A stretch of 53,076 bases of DNA, taken from positions 747,604 to 800,679 of the forward strand of contig NZ_CP017881.1 of NCBI RefSeq assembly GCF_002761295.1, read 5' to 3'. Under the pieces are notes generated by a model. That model was not told the DNA's origin. It was given only the letters and a program-made list of their open reading frames with translations, and did no database searches. The DNA comes from Methanohalophilus portucalensis (lineage in GTDB: Archaea; Halobacteriota; Methanosarcinia; Methanosarcinales; Methanosarcinaceae). A program made the position numbers and the translations under genes. Below, in pieces: positions 1 through 27,916 of this stretch; within the stretch, counting starts at the first letter, position 1, and the number at the start of each line of letters is the position of its first letter.

Positions 1-837
1 AAATCCGAAACCCGTCAGATCAGGACCGCCGCTTCCATGGCAGGTCGTCCTGGTATGGCAGTTTAGGGCCCTGAGACTTCTCTGTCTGCCCAGGGTAACA
101 TCGGTGCAGACTGTGTCGGTGGTATGAACTCCAACGACAGCCACGAAGTCTCCCAGTTGAACGAACTCAAGATCGATCTTGACGCAATCGCTGTCATTGC
201 CCACTACAAGGGTAACAGTGACATCATCATGGATGAACAGATGCCTATCTTTGGAGGCTACGCCGGCGGTGTTGAGGAAACAGCCATTGTCGATGTTGCA
301 ACCCACCTGAACTCTATGGTAATGAGCAGTGCCAGCTGGCACCTTGATGGTCCAGTGCACATCCGCTGGGGATCCACCAACACTCGTGAGACCCTTATGA
401 TCGCAGGTTGGACATGTGCCACCATTTCCGAGTTCACAGACCTTATGTCCGGTAACCAGTACTATCCATGTGCCGGTCCATGCACCGAGATGTGCCTGCT
501 TGAGGCTGCAGCCCAGTCTATGACCGATACTGCATCCGGTCGTGAGATCCTGTCCGGTGTTGCAGCCGCAAAGGGTGTTATCACTGACAAGACAACCGGT
601 ATGGAAGCACGTATGATGGGAGAAGTCGCACGTGCAACTGCTGGTATGGATATCAATACTGTCAACCAGATTCTGGATAAACTTGTAGCAAGCTATGAAG
701 GCGATTATGCCAACGCACCTGCAGGCAAGACGTTCCAGGAATGCTATGATGTTGCAACCGTTACACCGACCGAGGAATACGTCAAGGTCTATGACGGTGC
801 AAAAAAGAAACTCGAAGACCTGGGTCTGGTATTCTGA
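1..837 (+). CDS. mtmB: monomethylamine methyltransferase MtmB, C-terminal part, with in-frame amber (pyrrolysine) codon
   Basis: Transfers the methyl group of monomethylamine to the corrinoid protein MtmC, the first step of methanogenesis from methylamine in the cytoplasm. The frame is open from base 1 (5' end outside the window) and reads GRPGMAV-[TAG]-GPETSLSAQGNI, the known active-site context of MtmB, where UAG encodes pyrrolysine. The following 237 residues (NSDIIMDEQMPIFGGYAGG, WHLDGPVHIRWGSTNTRET, ending KLEDLGLVF) match the family closely. It stops at TGA, and a strong hairpin terminator follows within 6 bases. Identity is very secure; a start at the ATG of base 124 would be an artefact of treating TAG as a stop. 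Confidence 0.97.
64..66 (+). other. in-frame amber codon read as pyrrolysine in mtmB
   Basis: TAG lies in the mtmB frame directly after GRPGMAV and before GPETSLS. This is the established pyrrolysine position of the family, and the frame is open on both sides. It shows that the host decodes UAG, which matters for the integrase and the small repeated gene further right. Confidence 0.97.
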
Positions 838-8952: not shown

Positions 8953-10098
8953 ATGGACCTTGAAGATAATTTATTAATGATGCCGGGCCCGGTGCCAGTA
9001 CCACCCAGGGTTCTCAGGGCAATGTCCAAACCGATGATCAATCATCGTGGAGCACAATTTTCTGGAATATATGATGATTGTCGTCGTATTCTTGCTGACG
9101 TTTTCAAGACAGAAAATGATATTTTTGTGTTAAGTGGTTCAGGTACCGCTTCTATGGAAGCTGCTGTAGGTTGTATCGCAGACAAAGATGACAGGATAAT
9201 CTCCATTGAGAATGGTAAATTCGGGGAGCGTTTCAAAGATCTTGCATCCAGATACGGTTCTGTCGTTCCCCTGGAATTTGAATGGGGTTCTTCAGTGGAC
9301 CTGGATATGCTTGAAGCACAACTTCAGGAAGGAGCAAAGGCCGTTACCATGGTTCACAACGAAACATCAGCAGGTATCCTGAATCCTGCCGAACAGGTTG
9401 GCAAACTGGCAAAGAAATATGGGGCCCTATTTATAATGGATGGCGTAACCTCCCTGGGCGGAGATAATGTATTTGTTGATGATTGGGGAGTTGATGTAGC
9501 AGTGGTTGGTTCCCAGAAATGTATTGGTGCACCACCAGGCCTTTCAATGCTTTCTGTAAGTGAAGCTGCCTTTGACGCAATGGAAAAAGAAAACCTTCCT
9601 TATTATCTTGATCTCAAAGCCTGCAAAAAGAGTGCTGACAAGGAAAAAACACAAACTCCTTACACACCTGCGATCCCCCTATTCTACGCCCTGCAGGAAT
9701 CCCTTCATATAATTGAAGAAGAGGGAATGGATGCCAGGATAGCAAGGCACCATAAGGGTGCAGCTGCTGTGCGTGCTGCTATGGATGCTATGGGTATCGA
9801 GATGTTCCCACAGCTCAGTGAATACAGTGCATATTCCAACACTGTCTCGGCAATGAAGGCACCGGCGGGTATGGACAGTGAAACCCTTAAAAAAGAAATG
9901 ATGAAATCCGGAATTACAATTGCAGGCGGACAGGCCCACCTTAAGGGCAAGATTTTCCGTATTGGAAGTATGGCCAATGTAAGTTACAGGGATATTCTCA
10001 GTACTCTCCAGCAGATTGAAGTAGTATTCAAGAAGAATGGAGTGGTTTCAGAACTGGGTCCTGCAACAGAAGCTGCAATTGAAGTATTGTATAAATGA
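8953..10098 (+). CDS. class V PLP-dependent aminotransferase (serine-pyruvate / alanine-glyoxylate / aspartate type)
   Basis: 381 residues of fold type I. It opens with LLMMPGPVPVPPRVLRAMS, typical of alanine-glyoxylate/serine-pyruvate aminotransferases, has the PLP aspartate in LFIMDGVTSLGG and the Schiff-base lysine in VVGSQKCIGAPPG near residue 193. In methanogens this family includes broad-specificity enzymes acting on aspartate or serine; the exact substrate is not readable. GAGGAAAG precedes ATG. It heads a tight run with ribC, ribH and a class I aminotransferase. Confidence 0.88.
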   Translation: MDLEDNLLMMPGPVPVPPRVLRAMSKPMINHRGAQFSGIYDDCRRILADVFKTENDIFVLSGSGTASMEAAVGCIADKDDRIISIENGKFGERFKDLASRYGSVVPLEFEWGSSVDLDMLEAQLQEGAKAVTMVHNETSAGILNPAEQVGKLAKKYGALFIMDGVTSLGGDNVFVDDWGVDVAVVGSQKCIGAPPGLSMLSVSEAAFDAMEKENLPYYLDLKACKKSADKEKTQTPYTPAIPLFYALQESLHIIEEEGMDARIARHHKGAAAVRAAMDAMGIEMFPQLSEYSAYSNTVSAMKAPAGMDSETLKKEMMKSGITIAGGQAHLKGKIFRIGSMANVSYRDILSTLQQIEVVFKKNGVVSELGPATEAAIEVLYK

Positions 10099-10569
<471 letters not shown>

Positions 10570-10632
10570 GAGTTTGATTTTATAATTTATAAGTATGATT
10601 AGGAAGCAAAATCTGCATTGGAGAACAATATA

Positions 10633-11037
10633 ATGACAATCAGACTGGGATTTGTGGTAGCGGAGTTTAACAGGGATCTTACCTACCAGATGGAATTGCT
10701 TGGTATAGAACATGCGAAATTCCTGGGCGCGGAAGTGACAGATACCATTCTTGTGCCCGGTGTTTACGATATGCCGCTCGCAATCAAGAAACTTTGCGAA
10801 AAAGATGACATTGATGCAGTTGTAACCATTGGTTCGGTGATAGAAGGTGCAACAGGTCACGATGATATCGTGGTCCAGCATGCCTCAAGAAAGATTACCG
10901 ACCTTTCTCTGGAATACAACAAGCCTGTCACTCTGGGCATTGCAGGTCCCGGTATGAGTCGCATGGAGGCTCATCAGAGGGTCGATTATGCCAAGAGGGC
11001 TGTAGAGGCTGCGGTAAAACTTATCAGGCGTCTCTAA
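10633..11037 (+). CDS. ribH: 6,7-dimethyl-8-ribityllumazine synthase
   Basis: 134 residues. Characteristic segments are [54 protein letters not shown] and the C-terminal [18 protein letters not shown]. It condenses the ribityl-pyrimidine with 3,4-dihydroxybutanone 4-phosphate, the step before riboflavin synthase. ATG 10633 is chosen because TTGGAGAA lies 9 bases upstream; a longer frame starting TTG would overlap that site. It sits between ribC and a class I aminotransferase on the same strand. Confidence 0.95.
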
Positions 11038-11057
11038 ATAATTCATAGGGGCTACTA

Positions 11058-12200
11058 ATGGCATCTTCAAGATTGGCCCGAGTGGCTGAATCCCCGACAA
11101 TCCGTATAGCAAATATAGCAAATAAGCTCAAGCATGATGGCATTGATGTAATTAGTTTCAGTCTGGGTGAACCGGATTTTGATACACCCAGACACATCAG
11201 TGATGCTGCATGCAAGGCGCTTTATAGCGGAGAAACTCATTATTCTCCATCCCCGGGTATCAAACCGCTGCGCGAAGCTATAGCCAAAAAACTACAAACA
11301 GAGAACAATCTGAATTTGGATGCATCCAATGTGATGGTTACACCGGGAGCCAAACAGGCAATCTTCGAAGTTATGATGTCTGTACTTGATGATGGCGATG
11401 AGGCTATCCTGTTCGATCCTGCCTGGGTTTCCTATGAACCATGCATCAAATTTGCAGGAGCAAACCCCAAATGGGTGCCTACAGACCCGGAAAATGGCTT
11501 TCTTCCTTATGATATTGGAGATCACATTACAGATAAAACTCGTCTGATAGTTGTCAATTCCCCCTGCAATCCCACGGGTGGTGTATTTGGCAAGGACAAA
11601 TTAAAAGAAATAGCAGACCTTGCCATTGATCATAATCTGCTGGTTCTCTCCGATGAGATCTATGAGAAGATACTTTATGATGAAAAACACTACAGTATCG
11701 GTGCTATGGAAGGGATGCAGGACCGCACTATTACTGTAAATGGCTTTTCCAAATCATATGCGATGACAGGCTGGAGGTTAGGATATGTCGCTGCCAATGA
11801 AGCTTTCCTCCATGATTTCCAGAAAATCCAGTCACATTCTGTCAGCAGTGCTACAACGTTTGCTCAATATGGTGCCATTGAGGCACTGGAAGGTGACCAG
11901 CAACCTGTTGAGGACATGGTAGCCGAATTCAGGCAACGTCGCGATATCCTTGTAGATGGGTTGAATGATATTGGTATACATTGCAGCCGTCCCAGGGGTG
12001 CATTCTATGCATTTGCGGATGTAAGCGAGTATGGGAATGGTGAAGAGATTGCTGAGAAATTACTTTCAGATGCCCACGTTGCTGCTACTCCCGGTTCGGC
12101 TTTTGGCCCAAGTGGTAACAATTTCGTGAGGCTTTCATATGCTATTTCACAGGAAAGGATAAGAGAAGCTCTTGAAAGGATTGAGAATTGCCTTTTATAA
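11058..12200 (+). CDS. class I PLP-dependent aminotransferase, aspartate aminotransferase-like
   Basis: 380 residues with the subgroup I-gamma pattern: ISFSLGEPDFDTPRHI, THYSPSPGIKPLREAIA, NSPCNPTGGVF, LSDEIYEKILYD, the PLP lysine in NGFSKSYAMTGWRLGY near residue 233, and the substrate arginine in NFVRLSYA. It probably transaminates aspartate or another amino acid. The gene starts 20 bases after ribH and ends in a 6-base convergent overlap with ribL. Substrate specificity among AspC-like enzymes is not resolvable here. Confidence 0.9.
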   Translation: MASSRLARVAESPTIRIANIANKLKHDGIDVISFSLGEPDFDTPRHISDAACKALYSGETHYSPSPGIKPLREAIAKKLQTENNLNLDASNVMVTPGAKQAIFEVMMSVLDDGDEAILFDPAWVSYEPCIKFAGANPKWVPTDPENGFLPYDIGDHITDKTRLIVVNSPCNPTGGVFGKDKLKEIADLAIDHNLLVLSDEIYEKILYDEKHYSIGAMEGMQDRTITVNGFSKSYAMTGWRLGYVAANEAFLHDFQKIQSHSVSSATTFAQYGAIEALEGDQQPVEDMVAEFRQRRDILVDGLNDIGIHCSRPRGAFYAFADVSEYGNGEEIAEKLLSDAHVAATPGSAFGPSGNNFVRLSYAISQERIREALERIENCLL

Positions 12201-12623
12201 TTCTGTTCTCTTTCTTTCCAGGATTCTTTTTATAATTCTGCCACTGCTGCAAAGCGGACATTGCCGGGGCTTTCCCAGACGAACTACCTTTGTCTTGAAT
12301 CCTCTTTTTTGAAGTTTATCTTCAAGTTCTTTTTCACCGAATACCTGGTCGTGCCCCAGTACGATGATATCCGGTTGTACTTCTTCGAGGGGTTTGAACA
12401 TATCTTCTTCGCTTCCCAGAAGGGCATGGTCCACAACCTTTAAAGCTTTAACCATTTCAAGCCGCTGTTTTTCAGGAACTATGGGTTTAGGTTTATGTTC
12501 AATTGTTGAGTCCCGTGCAACAAGGACATATAATTCATTGCCATACTTCCGGGCCTGGTCCAGATAGTAGAGATGGCCCGGGTGTAGTATATCAAAGGTT
12601 CCTGTTGCAAGTATGCGTGTCAA
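12195..12623 (-). CDS. ribL: archaeal FAD synthase RibL (cytidylyltransferase-like)
   Basis: Nucleotidyltransferase with the signature ATGTFDILHPGHLYYLDQA at its N-terminus, HKPKPIVPEKQRLEMVKAL in the middle and RKRTEL at the C-terminus; it adenylylates FMN to FAD. Two cysteines occur in RQCPLCSSG, as in the archaeal enzyme. TTG 12623 gives 142 residues, the usual length, with GGTGAT just upstream. An alternative TTG at 12707 overlaps the stop of the DUF1638 gene (TTGA) and adds 28 residues. It is divergently placed but functionally linked to ribC and ribH across the convergent overlap. Confidence 0.88.
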   Translation of the reverse strand: MTRILATGTFDILHPGHLYYLDQARKYGNELYVLVARDSTIEHKPKPIVPEKQRLEMVKALKVVDHALLGSEEDMFKPLEEVQPDIIVLGHDQVFGEKELEDKLQKRGFKTKVVRLGKPRQCPLCSSGRIIKRILERKRTEL

Positions 12624-12703
12624 TTCATCACCTGATTTATTGTCCGCTAATGAATAGGAATTACCTTTAATAACTTTATGGAAAAGAACCGGATACTTTA
12701 GGT

Positions 12704-13483
12704 TCAATATAATTCCTTTTTGAAATTACTGTAGCACTGCTTTAAAGTGTTAAGGTTTGCCGGTACATGCAGTATATCAAAGTCAAATAAATCAGCGAAC
12801 TCATCGACCTTTTGGTGGAAATCCTCTTCGTAATTAATTCCTGTGTCGACCTTTGCTACGTGCTTGTAACCAACTTCATTAAAGACATATCTCGATGTTT
12901 CAATGTCGTTTTTATCTTTGCCAAACCCAGAAGAAACCAGCATATCCCTCCAGTTGGCTGCCCACATGGGTGTCAGGAAAAAAGCCCCTTCCCCTTTGAA
13001 ACTCTTAAGAGTGTCGAGATATTCCTGTCTGCCTCCAAGTACGGCACCGATACAGTCATCAATTGTTTCCCCGTTATTTTCTCTTAGTATTCCCACCGGA
13101 CAGGGATGATCGGCAAAATCCTGTTCTATATTTGAGAGTACGTTGCCACACAATCCGTAGAAAAGCAATATACCGTCAGATATGGGTGTCAATCTCTTGG
13201 TATTTGTGTATACCTCATCCTTGAGTTTCTTTGGGGTTGCATGCAGGGCAAATTCAAGTATCTGGATAACTATATTGAATTGATTATCTGACAATGGGTT
13301 ATTCAGCAAATTCACCATTGTTTTTGTTTCAACATCCACTCCTGCTTTGTTGAGTTTGTTCTTTATACCATAAGATTCATCATTTTCGATTATAATCACA
13401 TTATCTACCGAATTGTCCTCTTTTATGAGATATGCTATCTCATCTTCGAACATTCTGCAGGCTATTATTGTTAGGGTTGGCAG
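12704..13483 (-). CDS. DUF1638 protein with probable CTG start
   Basis: The protein matches the DUF1638 family of methanogens and other anaerobes (GILLFYGLCGNVL, GRQEYLDTLKSFKGEGAFFLTP, IETSRYVFNEVGYKHVAKVD). Its molecular function is unknown; homologues tend to occur near corrinoid methyltransferase genes. The first in-frame ATG (13453) lies inside the conserved TIIACR-M-FEDEI segment, so it is too late. Upstream, the frame runs to CTG 13483, preceded at 5-base spacing by AGGTGAT, and is then closed by TGA; no ATG, GTG or TTG is available. The stop overlaps the possible upstream start of ribL. Confidence 0.75.
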   Translation of the reverse strand: MPTLTIIACRMFEDEIAYLIKEDNSVDNVIIIENDESYGIKNKLNKAGVDVETKTMVNLLNNPLSDNQFNIVIQILEFALHATPKKLKDEVYTNTKRLTPISDGILLFYGLCGNVLSNIEQDFADHPCPVGILRENNGETIDDCIGAVLGGRQEYLDTLKSFKGEGAFFLTPMWAANWRDMLVSSGFGKDKNDIETSRYVFNEVGYKHVAKVDTGINYEEDFHQKVDEFADLFDFDILHVPANLNTLKQCYSNFKKELY

Positions 13484-16549: not shown

Positions 16550-17773
16550 TCAGAACAGGAAGTAATCAATCAGTAAGACTGAAGTGAAGAGTGATATCCC
16601 CAGTATGGCAAGTGGAATGGTATAGTTTGATACTACGGTTTTCACATCATCGCCCGTGGTTCTCTGGATCAGCCAGAAAAATGGATCTGTAACGTAGGAA
16701 AACACCATGGTGCCAGCTGAAATCATCAATATTAGAGGGATGGTTGCCACCTCTGAAACATAGGGGCTGTAGGCGAGTATGGATGATGTTATTATTGCAG
16801 TGACAGCCCTGGAGCCCTGCGCAGTCTGGATTATCGCGGCGAAAAGAAACGGGATGAAAAGAGCAGGTACTAGGTGTCCGATTAGATTATAGGTATTTTC
16901 TGCAAATGAGCTTGCAGCAATTACTCCTCCAAGTGCCCCCGCACCGCATAGGTCAAGTAATATAATACCTGCATTGCGGCTGCCTTTTTCAAAAACTATA
17001 TCCAGGTTTTCCTTTTTTACCAGTAACAGGGAGAAACTGGCTGCAAGAATAATAGCAAGATTGATATCTGCCAGCAGGGAAGCTCCCGGCAAAAAATGGC
17101 CAATTGTCAGGAAAAAAATGGGCAGTATTAATGGAATCCATCCAATAGGTGACTTTTTTGCTGACAATTCTCTTTCTTCCCATGTGTCTTTGTGGCTGCC
17201 TCTTTTTGTAATAAGCAGGTATCCAAAAATAAAGAGAATTATGGATATGGTGATTGCAGCCAGGTTGAAGCCAGCATCAACATTAAAATTAAGATTTCTT
17301 GTAATACTGTATATAACAGGAAGCGGATACAGAAGGACAAAAGAAAGTGTGCTTGCGATTGCGGTTGCATAATAGCATTTCTTCCTGATTTCAGAGTTTA
17401 CATTCAGGTTTTCAACAAGGGGTATCATTACCACATAAGCTGTCAGGCAGCACATGAGGGGTATGGATAACAGGTAACCTGCAATCGCTGATGTAAGGGT
17501 GGGCCGTGAGGATATTTTTTGCATATCTGAGACAATTCGCTGAGCAAAATTTTCCTGTCTTATTACCAGGGCAATCAATGACCCTGAAAAAATAGGAATT
17601 GCTAGAAGTGCAAAAACCCTGCCTGCACCCTGTGTAGCCATTGAGATTGCATTTTGCTGCATCCCACTGAAAATACCATAAAAAAGGGCTGCACCTGTCA
17701 GGACAAGGAAAGGGGGTAATCTAATCTTCCAGAGAAGAATTGTTATTAATACTATAGTTATCGTGAAAATCAT
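16550..17773 (-). CDS. DUF401-type membrane protein, 5' end replaced by element insertion
   Basis: 407 residues, about 10-12 spans, resembling the archaeal DUF401 group of ion-transporter-like membrane proteins (LPPFLVLTGAALFYGIFSG, LLDLCGAGALGGVIAASS). Function unknown. The present start ATG 17773 is partly created by the integrated element: the 15-bp att core covers codons 1-5. On the other side of the element the core is preceded in frame by GTG-CAA-GCT-ATC-C and a GGTGA site, so the ancestral protein began MQAILIFTIT. The element now supplies upstream DNA with only a weak ribosome-binding site (GAGGTAT) and a TATA-like TATATA near 17825, so expression may be altered. Confidence 0.75.
   Translation of the reverse strand: MIFTITIVLITILLWKIRLPPFLVLTGAALFYGIFSGMQQNAISMATQGAGRVFALLAIPIFSGSLIALVIRQENFAQRIVSDMQKISSRPTLTSAIAGYLLSIPLMCCLTAYVVMIPLVENLNVNSEIRKKCYYATAIASTLSFVLLYPLPVIYSITRNLNFNVDAGFNLAAITISIILFIFGYLLITKRGSHKDTWEERELSAKKSPIGWIPLILPIFFLTIGHFLPGASLLADINLAIILAASFSLLLVKKENLDIVFEKGSRNAGIILLDLCGAGALGGVIAASSFAENTYNLIGHLVPALFIPFLFAAIIQTAQGSRAVTAIITSSILAYSPYVSEVATIPLILMISAGTMVFSYVTDPFFWLIQRTTGDDVKTVVSNYTIPLAILGISLFTSVLLIDYFLF
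17758..17772. other. attL core, overlapping DUF401 codons 1-5
   Basis: TTATCGTGAAAATCA, identical to 27902-27916. On the minus strand it reads as the first codons of the DUF401 gene (ATT TTC ACG ATA). A nearby inverted repeat ATTCAAATA (17784-17792) / TATTTGAAT (17808-17816) could be an arm site for the integrase. Confidence 0.8.
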
Positions 17774-17905
17774 TACGATATAGATTCAAATACCTCTAAT
17801 TGTACTATATTTGAATTGATTGTATATATTATTTCTTATTATATGATTGAAAAAATAAAAATAGTTATTTTTGGAATTTAAATTCAATCGGCAACATACA
17901 GATTT

Positions 17906-17943
17906 TTATACTTTGTCAATTTATGTAAATAGGGTGTATCCTA
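17906..17943 (+). promoter_or_regulatory. promoter shared by the two MGxxDxDY genes, copy 1
   Basis: TTATACTTTG lies 29 bases before ATG 17944; ATTTATGTAAA and a GTGTAT ribosome-binding region follow. The same boxes at the same spacing precede the gene at 25798, although the DNA between differs, so the two genes are probably controlled together. Confidence 0.55.
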
Positions 17944-18417
17944 ATGGGATTGGCAGACAGAGATTATACAAAAAGGGATTCAAACGGAAATCTTACAACA
18001 TCAAAAAACCATACTTATCAAAAATATAGTTATCATAAATCAGCTTCCAAATCGTCCACTATATCTTCTAAAGAACAATTTTCTAAATCATCTGGTAAGG
18101 ATTATCCTATTTCAAATACTACTTTGGAACAAAAGAAATCTGAACTTGCAGCTGTTTTAAGTAACCCAGATATACCCAAAGATGAAAAAATAAGATTAAA
18201 ACAAAAGTTAAAAGCTGATATTAAATACATCAAAATATCACTGGGGCATGAAACAAATATTGACGTCATAAATACTTCGACAAATGAATACAATTATTCA
18301 TCTGATAAAACTACATTTTGCAAAAAACCAAAATCAGAATCGAAACCAAAACCCCTATCTGAAAAAATCACTTCCAAATTAGGTAACATATTCAAATCTA
18401 TTAAAGGCAAAAGTTGA
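17944..18417 (+). CDS. hydrophilic protein with N-terminal MGLADRDY motif
   Basis: 157 residues, very rich in Lys, Ser and Asn, no membrane span. It starts MGLADRDYTKRD, matching MGVQDKDYPKSN of the AN1-finger protein at 25798; comparable MGLxDRDY starts occur on some archaeal and bacterial membrane proteins such as rhomboid-type proteases, but their role is unknown to me. A central segment (KKSELAAVLSNPDIPKDEKI) is probably helical. Its stop lies 45 bases before the AN1 gene, which has the finger and span but lacks the motif. Together the two look like a split form of the 25798 protein. Confidence 0.7.
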   Translation: MGLADRDYTKRDSNGNLTTSKNHTYQKYSYHKSASKSSTISSKEQFSKSSGKDYPISNTTLEQKKSELAAVLSNPDIPKDEKIRLKQKLKADIKYIKISLGHETNIDVINTSTNEYNYSSDKTTFCKKPKSESKPKPLSEKITSKLGNIFKSIKGKS

Positions 18418-18461
18418 ATATTGCATTGTTTGACAACATACTGATTTTATTGGGGGGAATT

Positions 18462-18983
18462 ATGTCTTCAGGTAATAACAAAGAAAATAACAGTAAATGT
18501 TGGTATTGTGGCAAATCTCCCAAAGATACAAAATATTCTTATGAAACTGGTGGTGAAAAGAGAATAAATACGAAAGGATATGGAGACGTTTTTAAATGTA
18601 ATCTTTGTGGATACTATTTTTGTGAGGAACACCACTTACCTGAAAAACATGATTGTTCTGGTTTGTTATTGAAAATGAAAATACGAAATAATAATGGTAA
18701 ATTGGAATATTCCTATTCAAATCTGATGAAATCAGATTCTAAATCCAATCAAAATATCAAAGATAAAATTAAACTTTCAGGAAGAAAGAATTATCCAATA
18801 AATAGTAAATCAGATGAAGCTCGAATCAGTTATAGAAAACCAACTCCTATTACACAAAAAAATGAAATAGAGTATTTAAATAATCCATCATTAAGAAATT
18901 GGATTTTGAACAATATAATTCTTTTATTAATGGTTCTTGTAATTATAGGTGCAATTGTATATTATTTGTTTATATACTCTTAA
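18462..18983 (+). CDS. AN1-type zinc finger protein with C-terminal membrane anchor
   Basis: 173 residues. Residues 13-65 hold the finger: CWYC, then a 25-residue loop, then CNLCGYYFCEEHHLPEKHDC, which fits the AN1 spacing of Cys and His ligands. A charged linker follows, and the last 25 residues are one hydrophobic span (NIILLLMVLVIIGAIVYYLF). The start at ATG 18462 is preceded by TTGGGGGGAAT; the longer frame has no site. Probably bound to the inner face of the membrane. A paralogue lies at 25798 in the same element. Function unknown. Confidence 0.8.
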   Translation: MSSGNNKENNSKCWYCGKSPKDTKYSYETGGEKRINTKGYGDVFKCNLCGYYFCEEHHLPEKHDCSGLLLKMKIRNNNGKLEYSYSNLMKSDSKSNQNIKDKIKLSGRKNYPINSKSDEARISYRKPTPITQKNEIEYLNNPSLRNWILNNIILLLMVLVIIGAIVYYLFIYS

Positions 18984-18985
18984 CA

Positions 18986-20008
18986 TCAATATTTCATTAA
19001 TTTTTTTTCTTTCATGCCGTTTTCTAATATATCACGAACGTATATTCCTTGTGGAGTATAGTTCACAATTGCAAATCCACATGCATAAATATGATATTCA
19101 TTCAATTTATGTTTTATATGCCCCCGACTAAATTCCTCATTGTTTTTACTCAATATTTCAATATCACCCTTTTTAACCGCATTTTTACCTTTAACACGAA
19201 CAGGTATCATATTACCCCATTTTTTAAAGAAATTCATATCTAAATATTCCCCATTATACTTTTTAGCTAACTTTTTACGTCTGTTTATTCTTTCTTCATT
19301 CTTCTTTTGGGTTTCAGATTTTTGAGTATTTGGTTGTTCTTTGGATTTGTTTTGAAGTTCGGAGACTTTCTTTGCATATTCTTCTATACGTTTCTGATGA
19401 GTCATTTGAAGTGAGAATTTTTCAGCTTCTAATTTTTTTATTTCCTTATCTTTTTCCATTAATTGCGATTCTAAATTTTCATCATCGGATTTTTCATTTC
19501 CATGACTATCATATTCATTACCAAAATCGTTAGGAGTATTCATATTGTTGGGAGGAGTGCCACTAAAATTGTTTCCTGTTCCGTTATTCAAATATGCAAC
19601 ACCATTGTTGCCATATTTTTCACGCATTCGTTTATCGTAATTGGATACAATCTGATTATGTAATGCGATTCGTTCTTCACGATACCCAAATGGGTTATCT
19701 ATACAGGCATCTTTGCCCATTGGTGTCAATTGGTAGTATGATGGTCGTTTTCCGTACTTTATAATATATCCACGTTTTACATATCTCGATAAATGGCTTC
19801 TGAATGAACTATATTCTCCTTTATATTCAGAATATTCATACATATCTTTAGATGTCATATCCACATTGATTATAGGTTTCAATATTTCCTGTTTTGCGAT
19901 ACAATCTCGTTCATGACATTTACCATGTAATTTTTTCTTTTTCTTTGCGTTTGTATTATTTTCAAAATTTTCATTATTATTACTATTTTTTGGAATTTGA
20001 ATTTTCAT
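18986..20008 (-). CDS. winged-helix and coiled-coil protein of the element
   Basis: 340 residues. The basic N-terminus (NAKKKKKLHG) precedes a winged helix at about 45-105 (SFRSHLSRYVKRGYIIKYGK, YYQLTPMGKDAC). An Asn/Gly-rich linker leads to a long coiled coil at about 180-255 (ESQLMEKDKEIKKLEAEKFS) and a C-terminal region with a second possible globular domain. It lies convergent with the AN1 gene (2 bases apart) and is preceded by an inverted repeat over a TATA box at 20086-20113. Likely a DNA-binding regulator or partition-type protein; no named family recognised. Confidence 0.65.
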   Translation of the reverse strand: MKIQIPKNSNNNENFENNTNAKKKKKLHGKCHERDCIAKQEILKPIINVDMTSKDMYEYSEYKGEYSSFRSHLSRYVKRGYIIKYGKRPSYYQLTPMGKDACIDNPFGYREERIALHNQIVSNYDKRMREKYGNNGVAYLNNGTGNNFSGTPPNNMNTPNDFGNEYDSHGNEKSDDENLESQLMEKDKEIKKLEAEKFSLQMTHQKRIEEYAKKVSELQNKSKEQPNTQKSETQKKNEERINRRKKLAKKYNGEYLDMNFFKKWGNMIPVRVKGKNAVKKGDIEILSKNNEEFSRGHIKHKLNEYHIYACGFAIVNYTPQGIYVRDILENGMKEKKLMKY

Positions 20009-20472
20009 AATATCACCATTGATAATATTGTTTTCACTATAACGATTTCAACGATTTCACCTCTCAATTCCTGTGGGTAACCGAAGATGTAATGTATATA
20101 TATAGATTACATCATTAATATATAATACTTTTTATTGAAATGTATTTGAAGAACAGATATATATTTATTCATAAATTGAAGAACAAATCGACATACATCA
20201 TTTCAATGAATGGTGAACAATTCATTTCAGGTGTTTGAAAAATGGCAAAAATTATCAAACGTCATTTGTCGTTTATTACATCGACAAAATAATTGTGCAA
20301 AAATGAACATATTTATACAATACTTTCATCGGATATATACTTCTTGTTTGAATTATTATCACCTTTACTCAAAAGGTAAACTTTTACTGTCTGTTCGAAA
20401 TGTATATATAGAAGTTGCGATATTGAGTAGTATGTATTATTCAATACGAATTATATTAATAAGATGATTTAA
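20009..20472. other. intergenic control region between divergent element genes
   Basis: No credible gene. It holds the TATA-spanning inverted repeat described separately, two copies of TTGAAGAACA about 30 bases apart (near 20147 and 20177), CGATTTCA repeated near 20043, and a TATA box GTATATATAG near 20401 that would start the RHH/ATPase transcript about 45 bases before its first codon. A frame at 20210-20467 has atypical composition and no ribosome-binding site. Confidence 0.5.
20086..20113. promoter_or_regulatory. inverted repeat around a TATA box
   Basis: GATGTAAT (20086-20093) and ATTACATC (20106-20113) enclose GTATATATATAG, about 80 bases before the winged-helix gene. The half-site GATGTAATC recurs inside the repeat array (23926-23934 and its copy), so one element regulator may bind both places. 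Confidence 0.5.
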
Positions 20473-20616
20473 ATGAAACAACGAATAACAATAACAGTCG
20501 ATGAAGATATATTGCCAATTTTCGATGAGATGGCAAATGAAAGAATGATAGCTAAAAGTAGATTAATTAATCAATTAATTAAAAATGAGATAGACAAATG
20601 GAAAAATACGAGGTAA
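20473..20616 (+). CDS. 47-residue ribbon-helix-helix (CopG/Arc-type) regulator
   Basis: Starts MKQRITITVDEDILPIFDEM: a basic beta strand (RITITV), then two helices with SRLINQLIKNEIDKW, the classic RHH pattern of dimeric DNA-binding proteins that control plasmid copy number or partition. It ends 4 bases before the ATPase gene and is probably its co-transcribed repressor. The TATA box lies about 70 bases upstream. Confidence 0.85.
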   Translation: MKQRITITVDEDILPIFDEMANERMIAKSRLINQLIKNEIDKWKNTR

Positions 20617-20620
20617 CAAT

Positions 20621-22513
20621 ATGGAAAAAAAAGAAAAAAATGAAACGCCCTGTCAGACGCAACAGGAAAATATTAATGCCAATAATAAAAATAATAACAA
20701 ATTATATAAAGATTTCGATACAAATGCAGATTTAACAAATAACAACGATAAAGATGAAATTGATAATCCACAAAAAGAGAAAATAATACAAACCATTTCA
20801 AAAGAATATAAAATTCCATTAGATACAATACGAGAAATATATAACATTGGTATTATAGAATTACAAAATGAAAATAAAGAATCAGAATATATCAGTAAAA
20901 TAAAGGAAAAGTGTAAAGTTTCCGATGATGACGCAGAAGATATAATGGATATAATATCTACAAATGCACGAAATCCCGATGCTATTGAAAATTATAAACA
21001 GAACCGAGAGCTTGAAATCCATACTTCAGATGTTATATTTACAATCACGTATGTAAAAAATCAATACCATATTCAATTAATGGAAGATGGAAAAAAGTTA
21101 GGTATGAATTATTCTGCAAAAAAATCCTTACTTACATCTCATCCACAAAGAGATAAAGATATTATAAAATTGATACAGGATTTATTAAATATTGATAGGG
21201 AAAAGGCGAAACAATCCGTTGCAGAATTAAATCGCAAAATATCAAAAGAATACTTCAAAGCTGTTGATGAACTCAAAACCAATTATGAAAAATATATTGA
21301 AACAATAGAAGATGGAGATGAAGATGATGAAAATGAACCTGAAGCGTGGGAAAATGAAGACATAATCGATAAAGCTAATGATATTCTTAATAATGGTAAT
21401 CCTTATGAATTTATACAAAAATCTACCGCAAAACACCACGCTGGTGATGAAGACTTAATAAAAATGTTAATTATTGCAAGGTCAAATCAATCAATACGAA
21501 ACAGTAATGGGTTACAACCCACTATTAATGGCGATTCGGGTTCAGGAAAATCACATGCCACATTTACATTTATAAAACATATTCCAAAAAAATATGTAAT
21601 AGAAGGTTCTTTTAGTGACAAATCCTTTTTTTATCTCGGTTTGAAACCCCCTATGGTTATCGTTAGTGATGATACTGAAATTAGTAATAGTATGGAAAAT
21701 ACATTAAAAAGGGCAATGTCAAATTTTCAAGAAAAAACTGAACATTATACTGTGAATACTGATAGAGAATCAGAAAAATTAATACTTCCTGAAAGGTCAC
21801 TCTTTTTATTAAATTCTGTAGAAATGAAAGGAGGAGATGAACTACAAAATAGACAGACGAGCTTTGCTGCCGATAATAGTAAAAAACAGGATGAATCTGT
21901 CTTTAATATTCAACAAAGAAAGGCAATGTTAGGAGAGATACCCGACCTTGCAGATGATGAAAATGTATTGATATGTAGGGCAATGTTCGATATATATGCA
22001 AAGAATCTAGATATCGTAGTCATCCCCTTTGCCGATAAAATAAAGTGGAACGATAAGAAAAATAGGCGAAATTTCGATATGTTTTTAGATATGGTCAAAG
22101 GGTTCACAATGTTAAATTTTCGACAACGCAAAAAGAACAATTCTGGATATTATATAGCTACAATTGAAGATTTTAGAGAAGCCGAAAAAATATATCATAA
22201 AATTGCAGTAAGTCAAACAACTAAACTAACAAAGGCAGAAATAAAAATGGCAAATCGAATTTCAATTAATGGAAATGCAGGAATAACTGTAAATGAATTG
22301 ACAAAATCTTTAAAAATATCAGATACAATGGTTAGAAAAAGATTAAATACACTTTTTGAAAAAACACAAATATATGAGGAAGAAGGTTCAAAAGGTACAC
22401 ATAATGAAAATACTAGCCATTATGTAAAATACAAAAAATATTATTTACCTAATTTTAATCCAAATAATATTGGTAAAATCGTATATTTAGAAGGAGATAA
22501 TGTTGATGGATAA
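20621..22513 (+). CDS. AAA-type ATPase with C-terminal winged helix, probable replication protein
   Basis: 630 residues. The N-terminal 250 residues are acidic and Asn-rich. Walker A is INGDSGSGKSHATF near residue 310, a Walker B-like MVIVSDDTE near 348, and LFLLNSVEMKGGDE contains a sensor-like Asn. A helical region and a C-terminal winged helix (ITVNELTKSLKISDTMVRKR, near 560-590) follow. The architecture suggests a helicase loader or initiator of an archaeal plasmid, in line with the RHH gene upstream and iterons downstream. No primase motifs are apparent. Base composition is very AT-rich compared with chromosomal genes. Confidence 0.75.
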   Translation: MEKKEKNETPCQTQQENINANNKNNNKLYKDFDTNADLTNNNDKDEIDNPQKEKIIQTISKEYKIPLDTIREIYNIGIIELQNENKESEYISKIKEKCKVSDDDAEDIMDIISTNARNPDAIENYKQNRELEIHTSDVIFTITYVKNQYHIQLMEDGKKLGMNYSAKKSLLTSHPQRDKDIIKLIQDLLNIDREKAKQSVAELNRKISKEYFKAVDELKTNYEKYIETIEDGDEDDENEPEAWENEDIIDKANDILNNGNPYEFIQKSTAKHHAGDEDLIKMLIIARSNQSIRNSNGLQPTINGDSGSGKSHATFTFIKHIPKKYVIEGSFSDKSFFYLGLKPPMVIVSDDTEISNSMENTLKRAMSNFQEKTEHYTVNTDRESEKLILPERSLFLLNSVEMKGGDELQNRQTSFAADNSKKQDESVFNIQQRKAMLGEIPDLADDENVLICRAMFDIYAKNLDIVVIPFADKIKWNDKKNRRNFDMFLDMVKGFTMLNFRQRKKNNSGYYIATIEDFREAEKIYHKIAVSQTTKLTKAEIKMANRISINGNAGITVNELTKSLKISDTMVRKRLNTLFEKTQIYEEEGSKGTHNENTSHYVKYKKYYLPNFNPNNIGKIVYLEGDNVDG

Positions 22514-22515
22514 TT

Positions 22516-22532
22516 ATAGGTTACAAACCTAT
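22516..22532 (+). terminator. terminator after the element ATPase
   Basis: ATAGGTT-ACA-AACCTAT stem-loop followed by ATTTTTTTATA, 3 bases after the stop codon. Confidence 0.75.
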
Positions 22533-22542
22533 ATTTTTTTAT

Positions 22543-22947
22543 AAACTACCATTATAATATGTATGGGAACCCCTATACAACCCTATACAAATCCCCATAT
22601 AACCCCCATATAACCCCTTCTTTTTTTGAATAACGGAGATACATTGACTATTTTTGCCAGATACACATAATAAGATAAAAAAACTACCATTATAATATGT
22701 ATAATAATATGCATGAAAAAAATATAGACTTCACTCATATCTAATAGGGGTTGGATACCCCTTTATATTTTACAAAATATACTCTACTATTATTAATTAT
22801 TTATTATATATATAAGGGTTTGATAAGGAGTTTGATAGACAGTTTGATAGGGGTTCGAGAGGTTATACTTATTTATTATTCAAATTATAACCAAAAATGG
22901 TAATTTAAGCGCATATTTGAATTATTATTACAAATATGCATCAAACT
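22543..22947. other. candidate replication origin with several repeat classes
   Basis: This gene-free stretch holds (1) an exact 22-bp direct repeat starting AAACTACCATTATAAT at 22543 and 22681; (2) a run of CCCCTATACAA / CCCCATATAA variants at about 22568-22616; (3) three GTTTGATA iterons at 22818, 22830 and 22842, exactly 12 bases apart, with an inverted copy at 22940-22947; (4) a GGGGT-ACCCC hairpin at 22747-22761; and (5) very AT-rich DNA. It lies directly downstream of the ATPase, the usual place for an origin in small archaeal plasmids. Confidence 0.6.
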
Positions 22948-22998
22948 GCCTATAACCGTAATTATTTGTAAATTTGAGAGAATATGACAATCTAATAG

Positions 22999-23634
22999 TC
23001 ATTTTATGTTCTTTATCTTCTCTAACTTATCCTGTTCTTCCCATTTATCTTTATATTTATACATTGTAGATGCAGGTATGTTCATAGTTCGTGCAATCTC
23101 AGCCCATGTCAAACCTTTCTTTCGATAATCCATAACCTTACGTTTATTTGGTTCTTTAGAGGGTCTTCCCCACGAATCATTTTCTTTCTTATGACGTTGA
23201 ATACCGATTTTTATTCGTTCCTGCAAAATACGTTTCTCATTTTCTGCAACCCACCCAAATAATGAGATTAACAACTTCCTGTAATGTGAATCTCCAACTG
23301 TACTCCATGATTCAGATGGAGATAATGAAACCACTTTAATGCCCTTATCTTCAAAATCCATGATTAAATTCAATGTATCAATAAATGTTCTACCTAATCG
23401 TGAGATCTCAAAAAGATAAATGGTATCAATATCATTTTCCTCAATTAATTTTAACATCTGTTTGAATCCATGTCTTTTGGTAGCTGTTACAGAACCACTA
23501 ACTCCTTCGTCAAAAAATATATTTTCGTCAGGGATTCCATTATTCTTTAACTGAATGATTTGTGTATCTATATTCTGTTCCTTCGTACTGGTTCTTGCAT
23601 AACCAACTGATTTATTATATTTTATATCTTCCAT
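22999..23634 (-). CDS. serine recombinase (resolvase/invertase family)
   Basis: 211 residues. The N-terminal catalytic domain has the Ser nucleophile in VGYARTSTKEQNIDTQ, YLFEISRLGRTFIDTL around residue 75, and the helix E region up to about 140 (LLISLFGWVAENEKRILQER). A Hin-type HTH follows (RKVMDYRKKGLTWAEIARTM, then IPASTMYKYK). It may resolve multimers or invert DNA. The gene reads toward the candidate origin, and a pair of inverted ATGTTACAT sites lies at its promoter. Confidence 0.92.
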   Translation of the reverse strand: MEDIKYNKSVGYARTSTKEQNIDTQIIQLKNNGIPDENIFFDEGVSGSVTATKRHGFKQMLKLIEENDIDTIYLFEISRLGRTFIDTLNLIMDFEDKGIKVVSLSPSESWSTVGDSHYRKLLISLFGWVAENEKRILQERIKIGIQRHKKENDSWGRPSKEPNKRKVMDYRKKGLTWAEIARTMNIPASTMYKYKDKWEEQDKLEKIKNIK

Positions 23635-23646
23635 AAAATATATTTT

Positions 23647-23692
23647 ATGTTACATACTATATAAACATTTTTATTAGGGTGTTATGTAACAT
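23647..23692. promoter_or_regulatory. inverted ATGTTACAT pair upstream of the serine recombinase
   Basis: ATGTTACAT (23647-23655) and ATGTAACAT (23684-23692) are exact inverses flanking the TATA-like CTATATAAAC, 13 bases before the recombinase start. They fit an autoregulatory operator or a crossover subsite. Confidence 0.5.
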
Positions 23693-23863
23693 AATAGAGG
23701 TGTATTATGGAATGGGAATTTGCGAAAGGTAACAATAGTGAACAGTCTAAAACGAAAAATCTTTACACTCTACTCTACTGCCCCTCTTTTTTTAAACTCT
23801 CTAAATAAATTTTGTCGGACTATGCCTATAGTATAAGAGAGAAAAATCGTGGTTTGAGAAAGG

Positions 23864-23995
23864 TTTATATAATACGAAAATTTGAGATACAAACCAATCT
23901 TTAACTATTGAGTGAACATTACACATGATGTAATCTTTTACCAGTAGAACCCTCATATATCCTCATTTTTGGCATATTTTGGTATAAGAGGATAT
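23864..23995 (+). ncRNA. candidate repeat RNA, copy 1, with conserved TATA box
   Basis: A TATA box TTTATATAAT (23864-23873) is preceded by a purine-rich BRE-like GAAAGG. Downstream of the expected start are two hairpins: ATTACA-CATGA-TGTAAT (23918-23934) and ATATCCTC / GAGGATAT (23957-23995). No convincing open frame follows. The promoter is retained unchanged in all three copies, including the diverged third one. Confidence 0.45.
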
Positions 23996-24110
23996 GTAAC
24001 TCCTTTCAAACAAAATAGTTCCATATTGATAGGATATGAACTTTACAACATCAAATCTTTTTCTTACATCTTGTTGCAAATCGAAATTGAAGAGAATAGT
24101 ACATGAACGT

Positions 24111-24140
24111 AATAACACTAATAGATTTGTTTGTGTTATT
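24111..24140 (-). terminator. hairpin just after the repeated small gene, copy 1
   Basis: AATAACAC / GTGTTATT form an 8-bp stem. On the minus strand it begins 5 bases after the TGA at 24146-24148, where it can end the small-gene transcript. The same hairpin follows copy 2 (746 bases further right). Confidence 0.55.
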
Positions 24141-24145
24141 GATAT

Positions 24146-24361
24146 TCAATCTTCCTTTCTACAAATTGTTAATATATTACCATCTTCCATCCATTGAAAC
24201 TAATCGTCTATCCAGTCGCCAATCAGTAATATATATTCAACATTTACCTCATTACAGAAATACGATAATAAAGCTGCCAGTTTTGAATTTTCAATAGATT
24301 TGTCTGAAAACCTATTTTCAAATGTTATTTCGTTATTTATTTTCAAAACCCATTTTTGCAT
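24146..24361 (-). CDS. small repeated gene, copy 1, with one in-frame amber codon
   Basis: Starts MQKWVLKINNEITFENRFSD; an amber codon follows IGDWIDD after 53 residues. If UAG is read, 17 further residues (FQWMEDGNILTICRKED) follow to TGA, 71 in total. GGATGAT lies 7 bases before ATG. A TATA box TTTATATAAT (24429-24438, minus strand) lies about 68 bases upstream, and a terminator hairpin begins 5 bases after TGA. No family recognised; acidic and soluble. An identical copy lies at 24892. Whether the short or the long product is made cannot be told from sequence alone. Confidence 0.6.
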
Positions 24362-24607
24362 TTTACATATCATCCTTTATTTGTTGGAATTGAGAGTGAC
24401 ATAATTATCGAAGTAAGAGAGTACAAATATTATATAAATGTGACTGTATTTTAAAAAAGAAGCATGGTGTACATAACAATAGTGAACAGTCTAAAACGAA
24501 AAAACTTTATACCCTACTCTAATGCCCCTCTTTTTTTGAACTCTCTAAACAATTTTTGTCGGACTATGCCTATAGTATAAGAGAGAAAAATCGAGTTTTG
24601 GGAAAGA

Positions 24608-24741
24608 TTTATATAATACGAAAATTCGAGATACAAACCAATCGTTCAACTATTGAGATGAACATTACACATGATGTAATCTTTTACCAGTAGAACCCTC
24701 ATATATCCTCATTTTTGGCATATTTTGGTATAAGAGGATAT
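24608..24741 (+). ncRNA. candidate repeat RNA, copy 2 (hybrid)
   Basis: Same TATA box (24608-24617) and both hairpins as copy 1. Its leader carries the third copy's variants and its hairpins those of the first copy, reflecting the crossover. Confidence 0.4.
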
Positions 24742-24891
24742 GTAACTCCTTTCAAACAAAATAGTTCCATATTGATAGGATATGAACTTTACAACATCAA
24801 ATCTTTTTCTTACATCTTGTTGCAAATCGAAATTGAAGAGAATAGTACATGAACGTAATAACACTAATAGATTTGTTTGTGTTATTGATAT

Positions 24892-25107
24892 TCAATCTTC
24901 CTTTCTACAAATTGTTAATATATTACCATCTTCCATCCATTGAAACTAATCGTCTATCCAGTCGCCAATCAGTAATATATATTCAACATTTACCTCATTA
25001 CAGAAATACGATAATAAAGCTGCCAGTTTTGAATTTTCAATAGATTTGTCTGAAAACCTATTTTCAAATGTTATTTCGTTATTTATTTTCAAAACCCATT
25101 TTTGCAT
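24892..25107 (-). CDS. small repeated gene, copy 2, with in-frame amber codon
   Basis: Identical to the copy at 24146-24361, including the amber codon (24946-24948), ribosome-binding site, TATA box (25175-25184) and downstream hairpin. The lack of any difference shows the duplication is recent, so conservation between the two copies is not evidence of selection. Confidence 0.6.
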
Positions 25108-25353
25108 TTTACATATCATCCTTTATTTGTTGGAATTGAGAGTGACATAATTATCGAAGTAAGAGAGTACAAATATTATATAAATGTGACTGTATTTTAA
25201 AAAAGAAGCATGGTGTACATAACAATAGTGAACAGTCTAAAACGAAAAAACTTTATACCCTACTCTAATGCCCCTCTTTTTTTGAACTCTCTAAACAATT
25301 TTTGTCGGACTATGCCTATAGTATAAGAGAGAAAAATCGAGTTTTGGGAAAGA

Positions 25354-25485
25354 TTTATATAATACGAAAATTCGAGATACAAACCAATCGTTCAACTATT
25401 GAGATGAACATTACACATGAAGTAATCTTTTACAAGTAGAACTCTCATATACCCTCATTTTTGGCGTGTTTTGGCATTAAATGTG
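25354..25485 (+). ncRNA. candidate repeat RNA, copy 3, diverged
   Basis: The TATA box (25354-25363) is unchanged, but the hairpin region differs: the first stem has one mismatch (GAAGTAATC) and the second stem is largely lost (ACCCTC with AATGTG instead of GAGGAT). The small gene is absent after this copy. Confidence 0.35.
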
Positions 25486-25759
25486 AATATACACCTTTCA
25501 AACAAAATAGTTCCATATTGAGAGGATATGAACTTACAACATCAAATCTTTTTCTTATATCTTGTTGCAAACCGAAAATGTAGGAAAATAGTCTATGAAT
25601 GATGAAGATATTTGAATAAATGGGATTATTTAATTATTCTCAAAAAGATGCAATAATGTGTGAAACATTATATTCTTTCATAAGAAAAATTCTATAAATA
25701 AAGTTATATAACATGAATATAAGGCACGTAAACAAATTATAGGAGTATTACCAAACCTA

Positions 25760-25797
25760 TTATACTTTGAATATTTATGTAAAATGGATGTATTACA
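25760..25797 (+). promoter_or_regulatory. promoter shared by the two MGxxDxDY genes, copy 2
   Basis: TTATACTTTG lies 29 bases before ATG 25798, with ATTTATGTAAA next and GATGTAT as a ribosome-binding region, matching the arrangement before 17944. Confidence 0.55.
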
Positions 25798-26217
25798 ATG
25801 GGAGTTCAAGATAAAGATTACCCAAAAAGTAATTTTAACTCAAATCAATCAGAAAAAGAAATCGTTAAGTGTTTTCATTGTGGGATTACCCCCGATAAAT
25901 ACAATAGTTTAATGGATGCAGTTAATATAGATGACAAAGGTCATCTAAAACATAAAAGTAATTGTTCCTTCAAGGTATGCAAAAACTGTGGGGAAATTTT
26001 TTGCCCAATCGATATTTTACCTGAAAAACATAATTGTATTGGTAAACCAAATGAAAACTCTCAAAATAATCATACGATTGAACCATATAATTGGTTTGCT
26101 TCGGAACAAGAAAAAAGAAACAAGAAACAACCATCTTACTATTCTTTTATACCAAAAATACTCGCTTTATTGGTGATAATTGCATTACTATTGTTGTATC
26201 TTTATCTAAACACATAA
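25798..26217 (+). CDS. MGVQDKDY-motif AN1 zinc finger protein with C-terminal membrane anchor
   Basis: 139 residues joining three parts found in two separate genes at 17944-18983: the N-terminal MGVQDKDYPK motif, an AN1-type finger (CFHC, then VCKNCGEIFCPIDILPEKHN-C) and a C-terminal span (ILALLVIIALLLLYLYL). At the first His ligand position of the finger there is Asp (C-P-I-D), so metal binding may differ from its paralogue. The gene is convergent with the integrase, 11 bases apart. Function unknown. Confidence 0.78.
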   Translation: MGVQDKDYPKSNFNSNQSEKEIVKCFHCGITPDKYNSLMDAVNIDDKGHLKHKSNCSFKVCKNCGEIFCPIDILPEKHNCIGKPNENSQNNHTIEPYNWFASEQEKRNKKQPSYYSFIPKILALLVIIALLLLYLYLNT

Positions 26218-26228
26218 GAAGTCGTTTT

Positions 26229-27836
26229 TCACTCACCTATATCGTACTTTTTCTTTATTTCTTCTATTTTTTCGAGATAGGGTTCTTTTATACGTTCAAT
26301 TTCATATTCAAATCTTCCTTTTTCTTTTTTTAATATTTTTATTGTTCTTTTGTAACTATCAATGTCTTTCGTAGTCAAATTGACATATTCTTTGCCATCA
26401 ATAATAGTAGTTTTAATTTTATTTTTGTCAGTGCCTATTAGAGTTAATTTTTCAATGGGTTTCATACCATATGTTAGATACTTATTATATTCCTTTATCC
26501 AGTACTCTTTATCCTCTATTTCTTTTTGATATGGATAGGTAATTGCATCTATTTTTACTTGTTCATTATTAACTTCACTTTCCATTCTCATCATTTTTAT
26601 TTCTTTATTATGTTCTATTTCCATTTCAGCTATTTTCTTTTCAAGTCTTCTTTCTCTATCTTTTATTAGGTTTATATTGACTTTTTCTGTAAACATCAAA
26701 TGGTTCATGTAATCAACATATTTGTCTTTTAAAACTGTCACAGCTTCTTCAGGAGTTCCATAATTTGTCAAATACGTTTCATATGATTCACCTGTTGATT
26801 TTCCAGCTAAAAAATGTACGTCTTGTATTCCGTAACCATAACTATGCAATGTTTTTATGAAGAAACTACGTAAATTATGTGTACGAAGCTTATTGTATTT
26901 CCCCTCTCCAGTTGATAATCCAGATTCATGTGCGATTTTCACCATATATTTGCCTATATTATGTGGTCGTAAACATCGTTTTTTATCATCAAAATCATCC
27001 AAATAATAGTCAGGTATATCCCGCATTAGAAATAACTAATCACTATGGTTTCTCCATTCACGTTTACTTTTCAATATATTAGCGGGTTTCCCTCTATAAT
27101 TTACATTTTTATTATCTTTGTTTTTATATGTAGGGTTGCGGTTTCTCCATTCTAAATATTCACATACAGCTTTAGTAGCTTCAGGATTTAAAAAGGAAAG
27201 GTGCTCCACATCTGTTTTTCCTCTTTTTAATAATTCTAATGTAACTATTTTATTTTCATCAATATTTTCCTAAACATCACCAACAGTCAATTTCGTAATA
27301 TCATCAGACGCCATACCCGTCGATACTGCAACTAAAATATAAGCTCTTATTAGAGGATTTTCTCCTGCATAATTTTCTAAAACATTCTTAATATCTTCAT
27401 AAGTTAATCTTTCATTATTTCCATCTTTCTTATTTGTTTTTTTTGCTATGACATTTTCAGAAATAGGAATATCATAATATTTGTAAAAGTTATGAATACA
27501 CCGAAGTCTCTGATTAACTGTTTTTTCCGAGGAATTTCTTTCATTTATCAAATAATTTTTAAATTTACGAATATATCGTATGTGTTTTTGCCTTTGTATA
27601 ATAACTTTGTCATCTAATTCGTCGAGTGCTTCATCTATCAATTCATCTGGTGTTTTCCCTGTGAATTTTACATATATTTGTAATGTACTTTTGTAATTTT
27701 TTCTTGTGTTAATACTTTTTTTACTTTCTATCCATTCTTTACATGATTCATATTCATCAACACATTTTCCATTTATTTTGTATTTTAAATGGTCTTTATT
27801 TCGTCTTTTATCTACCTTTTTATTTTGATTATTCAT
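26229..27836 (-). CDS. tyrosine recombinase (integrase) with two in-frame amber codons
   Basis: A single frame of 536 codons, interrupted only by TAG at codons 189 and 267. Residues 30-130 are the core-binding domain (SINTRKNYKSTLQIYVKFTG). The catalytic domain starts near 160 with STGMASDDITKLTVGDV, where Arg I seems to be Ala. His320 and Arg323 lie in RTHNLRSFF, Lys346 replaces the usual box II His (LAGKS), and the nucleophile is probably Tyr355 in ESYETYL. A coiled-coil tail of about 170 residues follows. AAAGGTG precedes ATG. Read with pyrrolysine or suppressed, the protein is whole; read as stops, it is a pseudogene. It lies next to attR. Confidence 0.8.
27036..27038 (-). other. second in-frame amber codon of the integrase
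   Basis: TAG (CTA on the + strand) between REWRNHSD and LFLMRDIP, in the same frame as both halves. In related recombinases this position holds an ordinary residue just before the Leu-Phe strand. Confidence 0.85.
27270..27272 (-). other. first in-frame amber codon of the integrase
   Basis: TAG directly after KLTVGDV and before ENIDENKIVTLELLKRG, the normal continuation of the catalytic domain. The frame is unchanged across it. Confidence 0.85.
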
Positions 27837-27901
27837 TCAATTACACCTTTCATACTTTTTGATATGATTCATATGATATAATCACATCGATATCGATTTG
27901 A

Positions 27902-27916
27902 TTATCGTGAAAATCA
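27902..27916. other. attR core
   Basis: TTATCGTGAAAATCA, identical to attL. The adjacent element-side DNA carries palindromic segments (TCGATATCGA near 27888 and ATGATTCATATGAT near 27863) that may be integrase or excisionase arm sites. Confidence 0.8.

Follow-up and report, generated by a model that had tools for sequence, protein, structure and literature searches.

The integrase gene of an integrated element in Methanohalophilus portucalensis is interrupted by two in-frame amber codons, which raises the question of whether the gene is dead or is read through with pyrrolysine. The gene lies at 26229..27836 on the minus strand of the window, i.e., the whole stretch of 53,076 nucleotides of chromosomal DNA that was analyzed, and comprises 535 codons followed by a TGA stop. 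The initial annotation held that this frame is interrupted solely by TAG at codons 189 (27270..27272, minus strand) and 267 (27036..27038, minus strand), and we confirmed this: there are no TAA codons, no internal TGA codons, and no frameshifts. The remaining two minus-strand frames of the same interval contain 26 TAA and 14 TGA codons and 34 TAA and 41 TGA codons, respectively. Because these sibling frames are full of TAA and TGA, the integrase frame is a real coding sequence rather than a product of chance.

Profile matches, conserved residues, and the predicted fold place the readthrough product, as originally proposed, among the tyrosine recombinases. With TAG translated as a residue, the protein matches the Pfam family Phage_integrase (37.8 bits vs. 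a cut-off of 27.1) over residues 143-356, an interval that contains both TAGs; it also scores above the cut-off for Phage_int_SAM_4 and matches PHROG integrases at 1.9e-13. Relatives are present in 57 of the 186 genomes of the same order (Methanosarcinales), with named loci in Methanosarcina, Methanolobus, Methanococcoides, Methanoperedens, and other genera, and the best homologues are 36-38% identical. Phage and plasmid records and viral contigs held no relative closer than 24-38% identity. In an alignment of 29 rows (28 homologues plus the integrase), all 13 invariant columns are retained in the integrase. The HxxR motif and nucleophilic tyrosine (H320, R323, Y355) are invariant across the 29 sequences, and five invariant residues (R287, H320, R323, G345, and Y355) lie downstream of the second TAG, all of them kept. 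Lys346 occupies a position where His is usual; given that the closest homologues also have Lys there, this substitution does not represent damage.

An AlphaFold2 model based on the alignment of 29 sequences (mean pLDDT 87.2) predicts core-binding and catalytic domains, with Z scores of 13-18 against Xer, Cre, lambda Int, and SSV1 Int. The predicted fold and HxxR...Y pattern resemble those of XerA (4a8e, 5hxy) and the catalytic domain of the SSV1 integrase (3vcf), with a Z score of 18.1 over 260 residues (rmsd 9.7) for 4a8e and 14.7 over 158 residues (rmsd 2.9) for 3vcf. In contrast to these two enzymes, with which identity is 13-20%, the integrase family has a long C-terminal coiled extension and lacks the usual box-I Arg in the aligned column. 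This column falls within TGMASDD in the integrase and SGLAANEI in the family consensus, compared to TGVRVGEL in XerA, and the aligned residue is not Arg. The box-I stretch of the integrase spans residues 172-183 (about 27288-27323 of the window, minus strand); the HxxR motif and Tyr are invariant nonetheless.

The host encodes a full pyrrolysine system, with pylS, pylB, pylC, pylD, and tRNA-Pyl (anticodon CTA) in one cluster. A positive control for UAG decoding is found at the left of the window, where the 3' part of mtmB (1..837, plus strand) has the in-frame TAG previously noted there (64-66); another mtmB with an in-frame TAG is present elsewhere in the host. A further full-length MtmB-family protein of the host (L086, G000:C1:546785-548131, minus strand) contains no in-frame TAG and, by eye, has Val at the expected pyrrolysine position.

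Stop codon usage was counted with a simple gene caller in 858 kb of the host chromosome (41% of the genome). Across 724 genes, TAA ends 374, TGA 341, and TAG only nine. At least five of the nine TAG-ended genes continue in frame through a conserved protein, i.e., the integrase, a PAS/GAF kinase, a URO-D-family protein, DNA polymerase IV, and a GNAT acetyltransferase. The others include a lipoprotein-like frame that probably continues and one that is apparently spurious, while TAG may genuinely terminate cofC, whose extension is four codons, and pylB, whose 39-codon extension overlaps pylC. When TAG is treated as a sense codon, further frames emerge, namely those of a GT2 glycosyltransferase, a SAM methyltransferase, a second URO-D protein, and a small ORF. 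Pfam domains cross or directly flank the single TAG in the genes for Pol IV, the GNAT and URO-D proteins (two genes for the latter), the PAS kinase, the SAM methyltransferase, and the GT2 enzyme. The suggestion that UAG is read in the integrase too is thus well supported by the full pyl set, the rarity of TAG ends, and the presence of TAG inside ordinary conserved genes.

Samples of related genomes were also surveyed. TAG accounts for approximately 18% of gene ends in a genome from another family of the order (G041) and for a few percent in Methanosarcina and Methanolobus. In the sample of a genome from a sister genus (G099), each of the four frames called as ending in TAG proceeds within a conserved protein. 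TAG is found there within a PAS kinase, an SPP1-gp7/Mu-gpF-like minor capsid protein (L079:11443-12003), and chorismate synthase (L074:2579-3601), a normally essential enzyme. As a control, TAA and TGA were likewise read as sense in the host; the 17 same-frame fusions obtained were judged to be adjacent genes without checking each, and the control was left unused, since it cannot separate pseudogenes from neighboring genes.

The host retains aRF1 and termination can therefore compete at UAG; amber translation of a reporter in M. acetivorans reached 20-30% (PMC2933860). The host pylB gene (L181:4878-5939) ends in TAG, beyond which its frame stays open for 39 codons and overlaps the beginning of pylC. 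A TAG at the end of pylB is also found in M. mazei, M. acetivorans, and M. burtonii (PMC2933860), and could feed back on pyrrolysine supply.

Aligning the amber positions with related integrases, a check proposed in the initial annotation, gave a different answer for each codon. The codon 189 column is variable and mostly basic (Lys in 12 and Arg in five of the 28 homologues), and the TAG recurs in exactly this column in L008, a homologue in G099. At codon 267, by contrast, the TAG is unique to this integrase and the column otherwise holds Tyr (23 of 28) or Phe (5 of 28) in every aligned homologue, as well as in 31 of the 35 sequences of a second set. L008 is a distant homologue (about 34% identical) and its nearer relatives carry Lys, Arg, Asn, Leu, or Gln codons at codon 189; the codon 189 TAGs of the two genes are therefore probably of independent origin. 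Only two of some 60 family members have internal TAGs; in several homologues, TAGs that shortly precede the true start were set aside as leader sequence. In-frame TAG is not conserved across the family, unlike in mtmB/mtbB/mttB-type or amber-transposase-type genes. Given the rarity of TAG ends, the continuation of most of them through conserved domains, and the recurrence at codon 189 in L008, it is well supported that UAG is mainly a sense codon in this Methanohalophilus host. It follows that the TAGs alone are no ground to call the integrase dead.

The main alternative is that the gene is a recent pseudogene, with two nonsense mutations that are both amber by chance and an element stranded in the chromosome. 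Codon 267 hits a near-invariant Tyr/Phe position, and both TAT and TAC are one base away from TAG. TAG density is also unusually high: two in 535 codons far exceeds the host rate of about nine in 228,000 codons outside the integrase and methyltransferases, a difference that counts against readthrough. Gene decay involving TAG, TAA, and TGA is moreover seen in the citrate synthase of several members of the genus. We nonetheless consider a pseudogene unlikely. Host genes do not usually terminate in TAG, and the chance that two random nonsense changes in the integrase would both be TAG is about 0.03-0.05. Neither TAA, TGA, nor indels accompany the ambers, all invariant residues are retained, and a homologue from another genus has a probably independent TAG in the codon 189 column. 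Furthermore, a degraded integrase fragment in a sister genome contains three TAA codons, and decay there looks different from the TAG-only interruptions of the integrase.

The citrate synthase genes of the genus (L150, L151, L152, L154) are intact in the host, interrupted by one TAG in M. mahii, and reduced to a decayed remnant in several sisters. The M. mahii gene with its amber codon (PMC3017947) might seem to favor readthrough, but was set aside as ambiguous given that citrate synthase decays in sister species.

With a probability of roughly 0.7, we conclude that the integrase gene is intact and that its full-length product contains two pyrrolysines; both translation with pyrrolysine and recombinase activity are inferred from the DNA. 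Host tRNA-Pyl would insert pyrrolysine at codons 189 and 267, and the two TAGs would most likely be ordinary near-neutral substitutions, one at a Lys-type site and the other at a Tyr/Phe site. The integrase may be less than fully active, as codon 267 replaces a near-invariant Tyr/Phe, and no close relative was found that could show selection since the TAGs arose.

The integrase could in principle also work as separate pieces without readthrough, i.e., a 188-residue DNA-binding fragment and a 265-residue C-terminal fragment starting from the ATG at 27026. An ATG does occur soon after codon 267 (ORF 26229-27026), but neither piece would contain the beta-hairpin Lys207 or conserved residues 189-266, and we regard this arrangement as highly improbable.

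The full-length protein would act as a site-specific tyrosine recombinase, with the 5' end of a permease gene as the integration site of the element. The left att copy, TTATCGTGAAAATCA (17758..17772, plus strand), covers the first codons of this gntP-type gene, and the right copy (27902..27916, plus strand) is about 65 bp upstream of the integrase start. The copies are identical 15-bp direct repeats, and the starts of the two are separated by 10,144 bp (17758..27901) with a GC content of 25-31%. Three sister Methanohalophilus genomes (G105, G109, G110) contain one 15-bp copy with both flanks joined, i.e., the empty site. The two identical copies, together with the single copy and joined flanks in the sisters, indicate that a 10,144-bp element has inserted cleanly. 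The GntP-type permease gene (16550-17773, minus strand) has integration at its start. An ATG in the occupied allele corresponds to CTG in the empty allele, and the upstream region has been swapped for element DNA; given these two changes, the insertion may alter permease expression.

Further ORFs were recognized in the element. On the plus strand are a 157-aa ORF with no Pfam match (17944..18417), a piece of which is 71% identical in a relic in a sister genome (G106); an AN1-type zinc-finger protein with a C-terminal hydrophobic stretch (18414..18983); a 630-aa P-loop protein with a GDSGSGKS motif (20621..22513), which has relatives in 18 other Methanosarcinaceae genomes; and a second AN1-like zinc-finger protein that falls below the Pfam cut-off (25798..26217). 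A TAG at codon 3 in a 642-aa reading of the P-loop gene was set aside as leader sequence. The minus strand encodes a 340-aa ORF without a Pfam match (18986..20008), for which a weak match to PHROG head maturation proteases was not trusted, and a serine resolvase/invertase (22999..23634). The sister relic (L071, about 9757-13162) is derived from a related element and combines 157-aa-type and AN1-finger genes with a decayed integrase C-terminus. At 23674-25600, a 746-bp unit is repeated in tandem about 2.5 times, with 762 bp identical at this spacing and no convincing ORF; possible interpretations are a region for replication or partition and a recently duplicated segment. No Rfam elements, PYLIS-type families included, were detected in the element at E-values up to 1.

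The initial annotation further proposed that integrase activity would be tied to methylamine metabolism. We found no support for this link: TAG is a sense codon in housekeeping-type host genes and nothing singles out the integrase for control. Indeed, this usage, together with the TAG in the chorismate synthase of the sister genus, points to a constitutive pyrrolysine supply. A related reading is that the ambers were selected as a control, either allowing full-length integrase only when pyrrolysine is abundant during growth on methylamines or confining the element to pyrrolysine-using hosts. UAG would be decoded twice per integrase, multiplying any inefficiency, and the codon 189 TAG does recur in another genus. 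However, internal TAGs are sporadic in the family and the nearest relatives have Lys or Arg at this position, the use of TAG in unrelated housekeeping-type genes argues against scarce, regulated pyrrolysine, and Pyl genes are constitutive in Methanosarcina (PMC4153887). We therefore regard selected control as very unlikely. It is somewhat less improbable, though still doubtful, that the element is restricted to hosts in which UAG encodes pyrrolysine, with full-length integrase and hence integration or excision occurring only where the pyl system is active. If so, pyrrolysine supply would be a gate on horizontal transfer, possibly a dose-dependent one given the two ambers.

Kivenson et al. are said to have described, in Science in 2025, archaea that use TAG as a general pyrrolysine codon (the 'Pyl code'). 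The Methanohalophilus host resembles such archaea in having almost no TAG stops, pylTSBCD, and TAG inside many ordinary genes; the present case differs from those reports in concerning a provirus- or plasmid-like integrase with two TAGs, read from DNA alone. Methanomassiliicoccales likewise make little use of TAG as a stop and carry amber codons in many genes, among them insertion sequences and cas genes (PMC4153887, PMC5011839). The closest parallel in function is provided by the amber transposases of Methanosarcina acetivorans and M. mazei (PMC2933860), which are also mobile-element recombination enzymes with in-frame UAG in pyrrolysine-using archaea. The integrase is a tyrosine recombinase rather than an IS transposase, however, and its amber codons are sporadic instead of conserved in the family. 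Thg1 of Methanosarcina is described as having gained pyrrolysine by neutral evolution (Heinemann et al., 2009, as cited in PMC4153887 and PMC8211752). Going by these citing accounts, it has, as proposed for the integrase, pyrrolysine at a position without known need, but is a cellular enzyme with one pyrrolysine, in contrast to the two predicted for this mobile-element gene. Amber transposases (PMC2933860) and the frequent use of TAG for pyrrolysine in certain archaea were already known; what is new here is an example in which the integrase of an integrated element carries two ambers.

The defined att sites and two independent amber positions make this case directly testable. Our findings suggest that the altered code of pyrrolysine-using archaea extends to their mobile elements, and standard gene callers would consequently split or miss such integrases or label them as pseudogenes. 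If UAG is needed for the integrase, the genetic code itself would limit which cells the element can enter.
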